NCBI GenBank assembly: GCA_944358115.1
Contig: CALVQH010000009.1
Coordinates: 1-34,155, forward strand
Reading direction: 5' to 3'
Length of the DNA: 34,155 nt
Source of the DNA: an uncultured Bacilli bacterium
Lineage (GTDB): Bacteria > Bacillota_I > Bacilli_A > RF39 > UBA660
In this document: piece by piece, positions 7,602-34,155 of the stretch
Layout of the letters: every line of letters starts with the position of its first letter
Numbering within the stretch: the stretch's first letter is position 1
Notes under the pieces: generated by a model
Told to the model about the DNA's origin: nothing
Database searches by the model: none
Seen by the model: the letters and a program-made list of their open reading frames with translations, nothing else
Translations under genes and position numbers: made by a program

Positions 7602-7963
7602 TCATGTTCGGACAAATGCTGCATAAGTTTGTTATGTAGAGGAAAGTCCATGCTCACACAGACCTGTGATGGCTGTAGTGTTTGTGCTTAGGGAAAAAAT
7701 AACCTAAGGTAGATTCGTCTAACGGCAAGAGAAATTCCTAAAAGCTTGTCTCATGGAAAAGTATCTTATAAAGTGCCATAGTAACGTACAAACCGGAAAC
7801 GGTGGAAATGGAACGCGGTAAACCCCACAAGTGAGAAATCCAAAATTTGGTAGGAGAGCTCTTACAAAAGAATCAAATGGCGTAAGGGTCTAGTTTAACT
7901 AGAAGATAAATATTTGTCGCCCTTTTTGGGAACAGAACATGGCTTATGAAGATGATTATTTTT
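7597..7963 (+). ncRNA. rnpB: RNase P RNA (class B)
   Basis: Catalytic RNA for tRNA 5' maturation. The 5' conserved region GAGGAAAGTCCATGCTC starts at 7639, GGAACGCGGTAAACCCC lies in the middle and the 3' conserved ACAGAACATGGCTTA ends near 7946. The two ends close as helix P1: AATAATCAT (7597-7605) pairs perfectly with ATGATTATT (7952-7960), which then runs into TTTT. P1 includes the gpsB stop codon, so mRNA and RNase P RNA overlap by a few bases and processing is implied if they are co-transcribed. P1 plus the T run may also serve as terminator. Confidence 0.95.
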
Positions 7964-20706: not shown

Positions 20707-21837
20707 ATGAAAGAAGAAATATATTTAAAAATGAATAGTCACAATGAATATTTAAGCAAATATGCATGTCTGGATAAAGATGCTATTTACTTAAAACCAA
20801 ATCATGCCGACATTAGAACGCCTTTTTTTAGGGATATTGATCGCATTATTTATTCTCTAGCCTTTATTCGCTATCAAGATAAAACACAAGTATTTTCTAA
20901 TACTTATCATGATCATGTTTCAAAAAGAATGATTCATGTTCAGTTAGTAAGTAAAATTGCGCGCACGATTGGAAGAGCTCTAGGATTAAATGAAGATTTA
21001 ATTGAAGCAGCTGCTTTAGGGCATGATTTAGGTCATACTCCTTTTGGCCATCAAGGAGAATATATTTTAAATGAATTAAGCTTAAAACACAAAGAAGGGT
21101 ACTTTAATCATAATATTGAAAGTGTTAGAAACTTGATGGTACTAGAGAATTATGGAAAAGGGCTAAATATTACGGTTCAAGTATTAGATGCCATTATGTG
21201 CCATAACGGAGAATTTGCTTTAGGAGAGTATAAACCGAAAAAGAAAACTGTAGAGGAGTTTTTAAAGGAATATGAAACAAGCTATCAAGATAAAAATGTG
21301 TTAGCTCGCATGCGTCCAATGACTCTGGAAGGTTGTGTTGTAAGAGTAAGTGATTTAATCGCTTATTTAGGAAGAGATATTGATGATGCAGTACGCCTAA
21401 ATGTATTAAAAAGAGATGAACTTCCCAAAGAAATTACCGATATACTTGGAAGTACTACTAAAGAGATCGTCAATACTTGTATTATGGATATCATTAATAA
21501 TAGTGTAAATAAAAATTATATTAAACTAAGTCCCGAAGTATATAAAGCCATTGTTGATCTAAAAAAATTTAATTATGAGCATATATATAATAAAGCTCTG
21601 ACAAAAGAAGCAAAAGAACACTTGCAAGATATGTTTGAAACACTATTTGATACCTACATTTCTGATTTAAAAGAAAAGAATGAAAAATCGCCAATCGTAA
21701 ATTCTTATTTGAAAAATATGAACGAAGAATATATAAAAAATAATAGTTTAAATAGAATAGTAATCGATTATATCGCTGGAATGACGGATGATTATTTAGT
21801 AAAAGAATATAAAAGAATAACAAAAGAGTCTAATTAA
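20707..21837 (+). CDS. dGTP triphosphohydrolase-like HD protein
   Basis: Deoxynucleotide triphosphohydrolase (Dgt/SAMHD1-like) branch of the HD superfamily. RTPFFRDIDRIIYSLAFIRYQDKTQVF matches the family N-terminus in part (RDIDRIIYSLAFIR). The metal site is H77, H106-D107 in GHDLGHTPFGHQGE, and a later Asp in RVSDLIAYLGRDIDDA. 376 aa, cytoplasmic. Expected role: hydrolysis of dNTPs to nucleoside and triphosphate, lowering dNTP pools; the preferred nucleotide is not readable. Its stop codon overlaps the convergent regulator's stop by 8 nt. Confidence 0.85.
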   Translation: MKEEIYLKMNSHNEYLSKYACLDKDAIYLKPNHADIRTPFFRDIDRIIYSLAFIRYQDKTQVFSNTYHDHVSKRMIHVQLVSKIARTIGRALGLNEDLIEAAALGHDLGHTPFGHQGEYILNELSLKHKEGYFNHNIESVRNLMVLENYGKGLNITVQVLDAIMCHNGEFALGEYKPKKKTVEEFLKEYETSYQDKNVLARMRPMTLEGCVVRVSDLIAYLGRDIDDAVRLNVLKRDELPKEITDILGSTTKEIVNTCIMDIINNSVNKNYIKLSPEVYKAIVDLKKFNYEHIYNKALTKEAKEHLQDMFETLFDTYISDLKEKNEKSPIVNSYLKNMNEEYIKNNSLNRIVIDYIAGMTDDYLVKEYKRITKESN

Positions 21838-21854
21838 TTTCAGACTCTTTTGTT
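21822..21854. terminator. Bidirectional terminator shared by dGTPase and regulator genes
   Basis: AAAAGAGTCT (21822-21831) pairs perfectly with AGACTCTTTT (21842-21851). T runs occur on both strands. The hairpin covers both stop codons. Confidence 0.85.
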
Positions 21855-22282
21855 TTGCCTAAAAGATAATCGGCCGAAACATGGTATTTTTTACAGATTG
21901 TATATAAAAAAGGAGTAGCAATTAAATTTTTACCATGTTCATAATCAACAATTACAGTATGAAAAGTATTTAAAGCATTAGCAAGTTTAACTTGTGTTAA
22001 TTTCTGCTTTTTGCGCCAATCTTTCAATCGTTCTCCAGCCAAATTTAAATCTATATCTAAAACATAATTGTTAACATTTTTATTTTCAGTTAATCCAAAA
22101 AGGTAATTAATAGAAACATGATAATAATTTGCTAAAGTATTTAGATATTTAAGAGGAATAATACTTTCTTGAATTTCATAATGATTATAAGTTTGTCTTG
22201 CGATTCCTAAAATATCTGCAACTTCTTTTTGCGTTAAATTATTTTCTATGCGTAACTTCTTTAAAATTATGCCATATTCCAT
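21830..22282 (-). CDS. Tandem XRE-family transcriptional regulator
   Basis: Two helix-turn-helix XRE domains in one 150-residue chain. The first is LKKLRIENNLTQKEVADILG with IARQTYNHYE; the second is LKDWRKKQKLTQVKLANALN with VIVDYEHGK. Each is followed by the NYYHVS.NYLFG / KYHVSADYLLG tail common in phage-like repressors. ATG 22282 is chosen because GGTGAT precedes it and the fold begins there; the longer frame to 22339 runs into the operator region. Divergent from the surface protein at 22475, with repeated GCTCAAA motifs between them, so it probably represses that gene and itself. A decayed relative lies at 15096-15257. Confidence 0.88.
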   Translation of the reverse strand: MEYGIILKKLRIENNLTQKEVADILGIARQTYNHYEIQESIIPLKYLNTLANYYHVSINYLFGLTENKNVNNYVLDIDLNLAGERLKDWRKKQKLTQVKLANALNTFHTVIVDYEHGKNLIATPFLYTICKKYHVSADYLLGKTKESEIN

Positions 22283-22314
22283 TGTTATCACCAAATGCAT
22301 TTTCTCATGTAACA

Positions 22315-22378
22315 AGCTCAAATAAAAGAAAGTGCTCAAAATAGGTACATTTTTCTTGACTTTCAGTCTAGCTCAAAT
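22315..22378. promoter_or_regulatory. Operator-like GCTCAAA repeats between regulator and surface gene
   Basis: AGCTCAAAT occurs at 22315-22323 and 22370-22378, and TGCTCAAAATAGGTAC at 22333-22348. The third copy lies within the -35/-10 spacer of the surface-gene promoter. AAAATAGGT also occurs in the second module at 33349-33357. Confidence 0.5.
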
Positions 22379-22384
22379 TATAAT
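22356..22384 (+). promoter_or_regulatory. Promoter of the surface-protein gene
   Basis: TTGACT (22356-22361), a 17-nt spacer and TATAAT (22379-22384). Near-consensus sigma-A promoter with an operator-like repeat in the spacer. Confidence 0.75.
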
Positions 22385-22390
22385 TTAACT

Positions 22391-22469
22391 ATAAGCTAGG
22401 AAACTCATCATCATTATGATAATTACTTTTGATGAGTTTGAAAATGAAGTACAGCTTATGGTGGAGGAG
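22391..22469 (+). promoter_or_regulatory. Structured 5' leader of the surface-protein mRNA
   Basis: ATAAGCT (22391-22397) pairs with AGCTTAT (22453-22459), and inside it AAACTCATC (22401-22409) pairs with GATGAGTTT (22431-22439). The ribosome site GGTGGAGGAG starts directly after the outer stem. Likely a stability or translation-control hairpin; no known riboswitch is recognised. Confidence 0.5.
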
Positions 22470-22474
22470 TTATC

Positions 22475-24559
22475 ATGGCCAAGGTATTAGAGAAATTTCA
22501 AAATAAAAAAGTATTTGCTTTATATTTAATAGGAGTACTTGTATTATCTATGGGTGTATCTTTTGCTTACTTTAGTGCAAGTAGTAGTGTTACGGGTGAA
22601 GGAAGTGTTGCAACAAATACAACAGCAACGATTGAATCAAAAGGAATTACAGCAAATGGTAATATTGAATTTAATAATGTAGATATGTATCCAGGACATA
22701 CTGCTATTGCCAGTATAGAAGTAACAGGAACTGGTGAAAATGAACCACTAATCTATAATGTCATCTTTAATGGTACGAATACTTTTAATACTCCATTAAA
22801 CTATACTGTATATAAAAGCGAAAGTAATATCGAAGTAGGTTATACATGTACCAATAAAAATGATTATATTAGTGGTGGAAAAACTTACTATGAAGAATGT
22901 GTAGGTAATAACATTGAGAGTTTAGGATCACCAATCAGTAGTGGAACACTCAATAATGGTGAAGGTAAAACAATCTTAAAAAATGATGAAATTATGCTTA
23001 CAGCTCCAGAAGGAGAGGTAGTTTATTATTATATTGTCATCGAATATCCAAATTTAGATACCAATCAAAATGATGATATAGGAAGTAGTATTAATGGAAA
23101 TATTACGATAGAAGAAGGTAGCGAATATCAAAAACCAGTAATCAGTATGCTAGGTTCAACTGTAAGTGGAAGTAATAATTGGTATACAAGCGCAAGCATT
23201 ATCACCAATATTACAACACAAACAGGAAATTATGAAGCATATTACTGTACAACAACAGATAATTCATGTACACCAGATACACAAGCAAATGTAAGGGATA
23301 ATAGTTTTACAACAACACTATCATCAAATACATCACCTCAAAAAGTATGTGCCAGAATAATAGATGAATATGGATTAACAACAGAAGGGTGTAGTGATGA
23401 ATATAGTGTAGATACAGTAAATCCAACCGTTTCAATCGCAAGTACGAGTGCAACCGAAAATAGTATTACAGTAACTGTAAATGGAACAGATGCCCATAGT
23501 GGAATATACCAATATCGGTTCAGCAGTAATGGAGGAAGTAGTTATATAACTGTATCATCAACAAGTAGTAGCTATACTTATACATTTACAGGATTAAATG
23601 GTGGAACAAGTTATAATATAGCAGTACAATCTATAGATAGATCTGGAAGAGTATCTACTGCGGTAACAAGAAGTGTGGAAACAGATAAATTTGGAAATAC
23701 TATGGCTGAGTTAATTGCAGAATATAATATTGGAAATAGAGTTGGGTTTGTTTCCACTTATACTACCACTACAACTAATACTGTATTTTCAACGTTAGAT
23801 TGGACGGGTAATAATAGTTATTATTTTGCTGGAAATCCAACAGACAATTGGGTTTATTTTGCCGGATACTATTGGCGAATTGTTAGAATCAACGGAGATA
23901 AAACAACAAGACTAATTTATAATGGCTTGAGCACAGCTAAAATCGGTGAAAGTACAATTGTTGGATATAGTGCCTTCAATGATGAGTATAATCGTAATGA
24001 ATATGTGGGATTTAAACTTGCACTTTGGCAGCAACATGGTCAATTGGCAAATAGTAGAATATTAAATAAATTGTTAGAATGGTATAATGGTAGTGAATTA
24101 TCTAATAATGAATACTCAAAGTATATAAGTACAGAGGCAGGATTTTGTGGAGATAGAACAACAAACAATAACTGGAGTTCTACTGCTGCTATAAATTATG
24201 CAGCATATGAAAGATTGGTAACAGGAAAAATGCCCTCTCTTCAATGCGAAGAGTCAAGTGATTTATACAATACTGAAGTGGGATTAATTACAGCGGATGA
24301 AGTAGCTTTTGCTGGCGGTGTTTATGGAACATCAAATGACAGCTATTATTTATATAATAATATTGATTTTTGGACTATGACACCGTACTCTTTAAATTCT
24401 CTTGGTTATGCCGGCGTTTTTTCAATAAGCGGTGGGCATCAATTAACTAACAGTACGGTAAGCGGTTCGCTTGGTATCAGACCAGTCATTAATTTGAAGG
24501 CAGATACTTTATTTACTGGAACAGGTACCTCTACTGATCCTTATGTAGTAGTTGAATAA
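22475..24559 (+). CDS. Large membrane-anchored surface protein
   Basis: A 694-residue modular protein. The N-terminal signal/anchor (about 14-33, ALYLIGVLVLSMGVSFAYFS) leads to a TasA/camelysin-like beta region (about 34-205, by its FAYFSASSSVTGEGSV start). Next come Ig-like repeats with spaced cysteines (about 215-310), a fibronectin III-like module (about 315-400, TFTGLNGGTSYNIAVQSID) and a C-terminal domain beginning FAGYYWRIVRINGD and ending GIRPVINLKAD...DPYVVVE. The last domain recurs at 1-354 and 33425-34155. It resembles FGE-sulfatase/DUF6273-like domains; no catalytic claim is made. Exported; probably adhesive or protective. Thr, Ser and Asn rich. Own promoter, structured leader and terminator. 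Confidence 0.8.
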   Translation: MAKVLEKFQNKKVFALYLIGVLVLSMGVSFAYFSASSSVTGEGSVATNTTATIESKGITANGNIEFNNVDMYPGHTAIASIEVTGTGENEPLIYNVIFNGTNTFNTPLNYTVYKSESNIEVGYTCTNKNDYISGGKTYYEECVGNNIESLGSPISSGTLNNGEGKTILKNDEIMLTAPEGEVVYYYIVIEYPNLDTNQNDDIGSSINGNITIEEGSEYQKPVISMLGSTVSGSNNWYTSASIITNITTQTGNYEAYYCTTTDNSCTPDTQANVRDNSFTTTLSSNTSPQKVCARIIDEYGLTTEGCSDEYSVDTVNPTVSIASTSATENSITVTVNGTDAHSGIYQYRFSSNGGSSYITVSSTSSSYTYTFTGLNGGTSYNIAVQSIDRSGRVSTAVTRSVETDKFGNTMAELIAEYNIGNRVGFVSTYTTTTTNTVFSTLDWTGNNSYYFAGNPTDNWVYFAGYYWRIVRINGDKTTRLIYNGLSTAKIGESTIVGYSAFNDEYNRNEYVGFKLALWQQHGQLANSRILNKLLEWYNGSELSNNEYSKYISTEAGFCGDRTTNNNWSSTAAINYAAYERLVTGKMPSLQCEESSDLYNTEVGLITADEVAFAGGVYGTSNDSYYLYNNIDFWTMTPYSLNSLGYAGVFSISGGHQLTNSTVSGSLGIRPVINLKADTLFTGTGTSTDPYVVVE

Positions 24560-33023: not shown

Positions 33024-33257
33024 TTACTTTTTATCATTTAAAATGCTTTTTGGATAGGGCTTGCGCTCATCAGTTAAACAAAGCAAATAATCAATACTTG
33101 TATCATAATAAGATGCAAGTTTTTTTAATATTTCTGTTGGAATATCATTAGTTTCGACTTCATATTTTGAATAACCAGTTTGTGACATATTTAAAATTTT
33201 TGCGATATCTTTTTGAAGTAGATCTTTGTCCTCTCTTAAATCTCTTAATCTATTCAT
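33024..33257 (-). CDS. XRE-family regulator (single domain)
   Basis: A single helix-turn-helix XRE domain of 77 residues: RLRDLREDKDLLQKDIAKIL, MSQTGYSKYE, then TSIDYLLCLTDERK. AAGGA lies 9 nt before ATG 33257; ATG 33266 abuts the ribosome site. It is divergent from the second surface protein, with direct repeats in between, repeating the layout at 21830-24559. It is expected to repress the surface gene. It is too short for a ligand or dimerisation domain beyond the XRE fold. Confidence 0.88.
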   Translation of the reverse strand: MNRLRDLREDKDLLQKDIAKILNMSQTGYSKYEVETNDIPTEILKKLASYYDTSIDYLLCLTDERKPYPKSILNDKK

Positions 33258-33306
33258 ATTTATCATTCCTTATAAAATAAACTTTATCATAATCTAATTT
33301 AGAGTA

Positions 33307-33335
33307 TTGACATTTAGCCTAAAATGGGTTAAATT
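33307..33335 (+). promoter_or_regulatory. Promoter of the second surface-protein gene
   Basis: TTGACA (33307-33312), a 17-nt spacer and TAAATT (33330-33335). The spacer contains the first operator-like repeat. Confidence 0.6.
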
Positions 33336-33359
33336 ATTAATATAAGCTAAAATAGGTTA
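33316..33359. promoter_or_regulatory. Operator-like direct repeats of the second module
   Basis: AGCCTAAAATGGGTTA (33316-33331) and AGCTAAAATAGGTTA (33345-33359) are near-identical direct repeats 29 bp apart. The first lies across the promoter spacer and -10. The shared AAAATAGGT also occurs at 22338-22346. Confidence 0.55.
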
Positions 33360-33424
33360 CAAAAATTATAACTTTATTATTAGCAAAAATAAATGAAGTT
33401 CTACTTCACGAAAGGATGTTAGAT

Positions 33425-34155
33425 ATGAAGTTTGAGGTATTAAAACAAAGCCATTTAAAAAGAAATATTATCATAGGAGTAGTAGTTTTAATTATTAGTG
33501 CGGTTATACTTAATTTTACGAGAGCACAATATAAAGTAGCAGAAAGTATCCCACTAGTAAACGGAACAATCAACTATGACTTAGCAGATTTAAATGCTGT
33601 AGCAATCTATATCCAGGAAGGAGATGATTACTCTAAAAGTGATACCATTCCTTCAAGTGGATATACATTCAATGAAGAGAAAAGTTACTGTACAGTTAAT
33701 GGTGAAGAAAATGCTAGTATTACAGTTAGCTATGATGCAAACACTCAAAGCTTAAGTGTATCACCATTAACAACAAAAGGCACCAAATGTTATTTGTATT
33801 TTGACCAAGTAAAAACGTTAAACAATGCAATCTTAACAAACAACGAAGTAAACGAAGGAACGCCAAACTTTGCAAGTACAGCAACAACGGATGAAGGGGT
33901 GTATAAAACAGAAGATAACTTAGGAACAAGTTACTACTTTAGAGGAGCAGTCACCAATAACTATGTTCAATTTGCAGGATACTACTGGCGAATTATTCGA
34001 ATTAATGGAGATGGTTCAATTAGAATTATCTATGATGGAACCAGTGCTCATGCAAATGTCGCATCATCAAGTGATAGGCAAACAGGAACAAGTGCTTACA
34101 ATAGTTCGTATAATCAAAGTTACTACGTAGGATATACGTATCAAACAGGTGCCCA
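33425..34155 (+). CDS. Surface protein, 3' end beyond the window
   Basis: Open from ATG 33425 (AAAGGATG upstream) to the window edge, 243 codons read. A signal/anchor helix (about 14-29, IIIGVVVLIISAVILN) is followed by a beta-rich region and then FAGYYWRIIRINGDGSIRIIY at about 188 (given in part: FAGYYWRIIRINGD), the start of the domain shared with 22475-24559, where it reads FAGYYWRIVRINGD. The DNA is also similar. It lacks the Ig and fibronectin modules of the larger paralogue, so the shared domain is placed much nearer the anchor. Function unknown; exported. Confidence 0.82.
   Translation, partial: MKFEVLKQSHLKRNIIIGVVVLIISAVILNFTRAQYKVAESIPLVNGTINYDLADLNAVAIYIQEGDDYSKSDTIPSSGYTFNEEKSYCTVNGEENASITVSYDANTQSLSVSPLTTKGTKCYLYFDQVKTLNNAILTNNEVNEGTPNFASTATTDEGVYKTEDNLGTSYYFRGAVTNNYVQFAGYYWRIIRINGDGSIRIIYDGTSAHANVASSSDRQTGTSAYNSSYNQSYYVGYTYQTGA

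Follow-up and report, generated by a model that had tools for sequence, protein, structure and literature searches.

Divergent modules of tandem helix-turn-helix regulators and predicted surface proteins, with predicted private operators, in an uncultured Bacilli genus

Comparison with described systems

In Bacillus, the XRE repressor SinR acts on tasA, the gene of a secreted surface or matrix protein; SinR has several targets and is antagonized by SinI. The nearest described system to the locus reported here is that of the Pseudomonas XRE-cupin local repressors, several paralogues of which occur in one genome, each repressing its neighboring gene or genes, with little overlap between the regulons (PMC7901475). 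Our locus, from an uncultured Bacilli bacterium (GTDB lineage RF39; UBA660), contains the gene of an XRE regulator, P0001, transcribed divergently from that of a predicted surface protein, P0002. The window, by which we mean the entire stretch of 34,155 nucleotides that was analyzed (GenBank CALVQH010000009.1), is one complete contig (C9) of a 1.31-Mb genome in 69 contigs; C numbers denote contigs of this genome. We consider it probable that this pair and its paralogues are self-contained cassettes in which each regulator privately controls its own surface gene, most likely by repression.

The theme of an XRE protein beside a surface protein recalls SinR and tasA, and one surface paralogue, on C11, has a weakly camelysin-like N-terminus (TasA/camelysin, Peptidase_M73; 17.3 bits, below the cut-off of 22.5, in this paralogue only). 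In contrast to SinR, there is one regulator per gene, and no SinI-like partner was seen. With the XRE-cupin regulators the locus shares a local logic, that of multiple XRE paralogues per genome each next to its gene. The Pseudomonas proteins carry a cupin sensor, act as dimers on palindromic sites, occur with up to 10 members in a genome, and exert metabolic control (PMC7901475), whereas the present regulators have tandem helix-turn-helix (HTH) domains without a sensor, are assigned asymmetric operators, reach up to 53 matches in one genome, and are paired with surface proteins. Correlation studies of MerR-type proteins and their DNA have found specificity residues that covary with operator bases (PMC5045206); here, by comparison, many paralogues occur in one genome, and two half-sites appear to be read by two HTH domains of one chain. 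A search of the open-access literature returned no description of such a regulator/surface array.

Pairing of regulators with surface genes

Two complete HTH_3 domains make up the whole of P0001 (E value, 5e-22 over two stretches; 78.1 bits against the Pfam cut-off of 23). It has no sensor domain, and the domain search gave no cupin match. A single-sequence AlphaFold model of P0001 (predicted local distance difference test [pLDDT], 39) was not used.

A check of the open reading frames (ORFs) placed the regulator and the surface gene, facing away from each other, exactly where the preliminary description had put them (Table 1). That description had also tied one regulator to one surface protein and had proposed a genome-wide count of the paralogues with a divergent XRE neighbor. 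The surface family has more than 40 matches in this genome. The count was limited to the 39 family ORFs whose 5' end is intact; for 27 of them an HTH_3 gene lies in divergent orientation no more than 700 bp away, so that most paralogues do have such a neighbor. Among the remaining 12 are two N-terminal-only matches, two members of a tandem array on C68, and three ORFs with little upstream sequence (C29, C39:11053, and C56). For congeners the count covered the 81 tandem-HTH regulators whose flanks are long enough, and 74 of these lie opposite an ORF of the surface family. With the thresholds applied, both the regulator and the surface domain were detected in 36/36 genomes sampled from the genus and in 0/24 from outside it. 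These counts, together with the covariation described below, support the dedication of each regulator to one surface gene.

One class of regulator and operator stands before different surface types in different species (P0002-type here, STGG-type in module L132, and MxFE-type in L133), and close paralogues of P0002 on C15, C22, and C39 are without a regulator; an exchange of control cassettes and surface genes is therefore apparent. Stacked modules, with at least two tandem-HTH regulators in a row and related operators, were seen at L081, L086, L180, L181, L183, and L184 (e.g., on C7 and C13), which suggests duplication followed by divergence of regulator and operator. The 4-kb contig G000:C68 (L079) carries head-to-tail surface genes, 2 nt apart and without regulators, possibly an operon or a cassette store.

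A predicted operator in a constant promoter frame

The gap has a common frame in most tandem-HTH modules: on the regulator side ATGAGAAAAT with a ribosome-binding site, on the surface side TTTTTC-TTGACT-17-TATAAT, and about 40 to 41 nt from TTTTCTCAT to TTTTTCTTGAC. TTGACT and TATAAT at 17-bp spacing are found in nearly all modules, and the -35 and -10 elements of the surface promoter are nearly invariant across 96 modules. Within this constant frame, the 17 bp adjoining TTTTTC differ between modules. Here they read TGCTCAAAATAGGTACA, which at up to two mismatches is unique in its own genome and which is identical in G028, G010, and G014 and has two mismatches in G012. Orthologous modules L132, L133, and L134 (regulators 67 to 75% identical) have the 17-mer unaltered; the operator of L136 has two changes relative to it, and that of L135 is TGCTCAGAATAGGGACA. 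Together with the -35 element, and again allowing two mismatches, TGCTCAAAATAGGTACA occurs once each in only 5 of the 36 genus genomes, those with the closest regulators. On this comparative evidence the operator is one asymmetric 17-mer that holds the middle of three GCTCAAA copies, the first and third copies probably not being operator sites of their own.

Covariation of recognition helices and half-sites

Over 97 modules, the mutual information that links residues of the regulator to positions of the operator was concentrated in the two recognition helices; one module in the operator set, L073, was mis-anchored and was flagged. Residues 28 to 37 of HTH1 had a mean Z of 3.2 with the left half-site and 0.3 with the right, residues 107 to 114 of HTH2 had 6.1 with the right and 1.2 with the left, and other variable residues had about 1. 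Residue 29 and operator position 5 are linked at a Z of 21.9, with Arg29 paired with G in 54/55 modules; for residue 108 and position 19 the Z is 19.7, with His108 found with C19 in 23/25 modules and Gln108 with T19 in 22/23. After removal of sequences more than 70% identical, which left 78, the Mantel value of HTH1-helix similarity was 0.425 for the left half and 0.004 for the right, and that of HTH2-helix similarity was 0.418 for the right half and 0.048 for the left; similarity of the remaining protein explained little. In leave-one-genome-out prediction, the helices placed the true operator ahead of all others from its genome in 60 of 74 cases, where 10 would be expected, and that of the window module came first of 16.

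Module pairs that share only the HTH1 helix have an identity of 0.85 in the left half and 0.51 in the right, and pairs that share only the HTH2 helix have 0.49 and 0.91, respectively. Module L143 is a natural chimera, combining the HTH1 helix of P0001 with the HTH2 helix DQPTWSIY; its operator joins TGCTCA to ATCTATA, the latter being the right half of four modules with helix DQPTWSIY. By the same reasoning, P0001 carrying the HTH2 of the C5 module is predicted to prefer TGCTCAAAATATCTATA. When the code learned on HTH1 was applied to HTH2 with the half-site mirrored, it transferred (z = 8.1), and the protein thus behaves in these comparisons as a fused pseudo-dimer. Pairing, operator, operator privacy, and the assignment of helices to halves are in this way established computationally, and the covariation of helices and operators is strong evidence, of a computational kind, for recognition of its own gap by each regulator.

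Proposed mechanism and alternative explanations

In the mechanism that we propose, a sensor-less two-HTH XRE protein would bind one asymmetric 17-bp operator midway in its own divergent promoter region, with HTH1 on the left half-site and HTH2, in mirrored orientation, on the right one, as a covalently fused pseudo-dimer. Helices and half-sites vary by module within a constant promoter, and each regulator would therefore address only its own surface gene, so that dozens of regulator/surface pairs could share one genome without cross-talk. The bound regulator would most likely hold down both its own promoter and that of the surface gene, which is near consensus, until its level falls, and each surface protein would come under independent control. 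We infer the repressor sign, the autoregulation, and the role in surface display. That P0001 represses the surface gene is likely because the near-consensus promoter should need no activator and because paired dyads overlap promoter elements in the single-HTH cousin modules on C49 and C28 (significant there, modest on C12, and not significant at C9:33266 and on C27).

Several observations weigh against this account. The operator abuts the -35 element on its upstream side without overlapping it, its center lying about -50 from the predicted start, and five surface genes whose upstream sequence is long enough (C4:31484, C15:99, C22:94, C39:124, and C61), the remainder of the 12 above, have no regulator and a promoter of another type. 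Residues outside the helices also top-ranked the true operator in 34/74 cases, above chance, so that part of the signal reflects shared ancestry, and the direct-orientation control of the mirrored comparison reached a z of 5.1, at one offset and with few positions used. A tandem operator beside rather than over the -35 element would be compatible with activation or with both roles. An activator dedicated to its module, or a regulator that activates one promoter and represses the other in the manner of lambda CI, with a bistable, heritable on/off state in each module, is favored by the place of the operator between the two promoters at near-equal, tightly kept distances (its center at about -49/-50 from both predicted starts); given the strength of the surface promoter and the repressor-like position of the operators in the single-HTH cousins, over promoter elements, we find this rather unlikely. 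The preliminary description had drawn attention to three GCTCAAA copies between the genes, one of them in the promoter spacer. All three are real (at 22316, 22334, and 22371), and the third lies within the 17-bp spacer. The heptamer is not enriched over the window as a whole (4 copies against 5.5 expected), but it is unusual for any heptamer with at least three G/C to occur three times inside the 192-nt gap (2 of 2,000 dinucleotide shuffles). Three P0001 operator sites that jointly switch the promoters are nevertheless improbable: both half-sites are found only at the middle copy, the only one conserved across species, copies 1 and 3 are missing from orthologous modules L132 to L134 and L136, and copy 3 belongs to a promoter common to modules with other regulators.

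It is scarcely credible, and already disfavored, that phage-type repressors or antitoxins simply happen to adjoin surface genes here and regulate them only incidentally. P0001 is of XRE type like RstR and scores just above the cut-off of that NCBIfam family (NF041951; 84.6, with the cut-off at 80, a score raised by the presence of two HTH domains, the RstR model being a single HTH; P0003, the regulator of a second module in the window, stays below with 47.7), and phrog_8, a PHROG family of phage transcriptional regulators, aligns across both HTH domains. The prophage immunity context is absent here, the window neighbors being cellular genes and the divergent surface gene; neither phage genes nor a toxin partner was found in the modules examined, and the genus-wide pairing and constant promoter geometry also speak against this reading. 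We hold it to be very improbable that surface diversity is made by a diversity-generating retroelement (DGR) acting on the DUF6273-like domains. A published DGR study reports a resemblance of DUF6273 domains to C-type lectins and, in phages, DUF6273 proteins among the targets of DGRs (PMC10743442). A DGR-like row of MutS_I-like, bAvd-like, and reverse transcriptase genes does occur on C6 (L129:4615-6242), the reverse transcriptase frame apparently cut short, but no adenine-biased template/variable pair was found with any fetched surface gene, and the region beside the reverse transcriptase has no second copy. Another reverse transcriptase, on C10 (L128:4278-5240), was judged retron-like from its motif.

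To return to private repression, we hypothesize on/off surface display, as had been suggested. No long inverted repeats were found in the gap itself, the flanks not having been specifically searched, and the locus showed neither a recombinase gene nor an invertible element, recombinases likewise not having been a specific target; any switching would therefore more likely be epigenetic. A tentative extension, which we regard as possible though doubtful, is that up to about 50 orthogonal sensor-less repressors per genome act as epigenetic switches that would give random, heritable combinations of C-type-lectin-like surface proteins with no DNA rearrangement, new addresses arising by exchange of one HTH and half-site or by mutation.

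The surface protein, its leader, and other features of the window

P0002 has an N-terminal membrane or signal helix, a beta-sandwich, an immunoglobulin (Ig)/fibronectin type III (Fn3)-like region, and a C-terminal DUF6273-like domain (about 23732 to 24556). AlphaFold modeled the beta-sandwich and Ig/Fn3-like region with moderate confidence, the model being usable for the Ig/Fn3 part only, and Foldseek matched it to generic FnIII/Ig proteins with low TM-scores. For residues 405 to 694, where a C-type lectin fold was in question, the pLDDT was below 50. The Pfam search gave no DUF6273 (PF19789) match for P0002 itself and 14.2 to 20.2 bits for paralogues, below the gathering cut-off of 23.5.

The 5' leader is strongly conserved and common to modules with different regulators. 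It contains short inverted pieces (GCTAGG/CCTAGC and CATCA/TGATG); RNAalifold found no pairs and no consensus fold in it, and Rfam gave no match. A small ORF that begins in the leader with an ATG at 22416 and overlaps the start of the surface gene was rejected, its peptide not being conserved in other modules. A second conserved promoter/leader type, GAAGTTTTGACAAGTTTTGTCGAAT, stands upstream of surface genes at L082, L087, L072, L074, and L076, mostly without a constant-frame tandem-HTH module; the type II leaders of regulator-less surface genes had no match in Rfam.

The recurrence of the plan near the end of the window with a different XRE type, also described previously, was borne out by a second module with a single-HTH regulator, P0003 (HTH_3, 47.8 bits). 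Its surface protein, P0004, is 63 to 84% identical to about 14 paralogues, and GCTCAAA is absent from the region (33024 to 34153). Both ends of the window lie in surface-family genes (142 to 348 and 33416 to 34155), and C13, C15, C16, C18, C22, C30, C37, C39, C43, C61, and C68 likewise have an end within a gene of this family or immediately beyond one; near-identical stretches in them would explain assembly breaks there. The window also holds a bacterial RNase P class B RNA gene (7604 to 7950).

Table 1. Features of the two regulator/surface modules in the window
Feature	Coordinates	Strand	Remarks
Terminator-like hairpin at 3' end of regulator gene	21819..21854	-	15-pair stem and T-rich tail
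Tandem-HTH XRE regulator P0001, 150 aa	21830..22282	-	ATG at 22282; HTH_3 match; genus-wide family
HTH2 recognition helix codons, residues 107-115, FHTVIVDYE	21938..21964	-	Covaries with right half-site
HTH1 recognition helix codons, residues 28-36, ARQTYNHYE	22175..22201	-	Covaries with left half-site
Constant element TGAGAAAAT	22299..22307	-	Shared by almost every tandem module; may be the extended -10 of regulator promoter
First GCTCAAA copy	22316..22322	+	Has just the left half-site; not kept in orthologous modules
Predicted private operator TGCTCAAAATAGGTACA	22333..22349	+	Left half 22333-22339 (HTH1), A/T core, right half 22343-22349 (HTH2)
Surface-gene promoter TTGACT-17-TATAAT	22356..22384	+	11/12 match
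Third GCTCAAA copy, in shared promoter spacer	22371..22377	+	Same stretch in C5, C12, C15, C19, C20, C23, and C55 modules
Conserved 5' leader, ATAAGCTAGGAAACTCATCAT...	22391..22474	+	Sequence conserved in 18 modules
Surface protein P0002, 694 aa	22475..24559	+	ORF; divergent from P0001
Second-module single-HTH XRE P0003, 80 aa	33024..33266	-	HTH_3, 1.4e-12
Second-module surface gene P0004, short subfamily	33416..34153	+	Likely start 33425; cut by contig end

Implications

For work on the code of HTH-DNA recognition, the array provides a natural data set of dozens of paralogues with assigned operators and two independently varying half-sites, from which clear residue-base rules emerge (Arg29 to G and Gln to A on the reading strand). 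The predicted specificities are open to a simple binding assay, and the modules may be a source of many orthogonal repressor-operator pairs for laboratory use. If the proposed mechanism is correct, an uncultured Bacilli genus would control a large surface repertoire by one non-cross-reacting, dedicated repressor per gene, an alternative to recombination or shared regulators.

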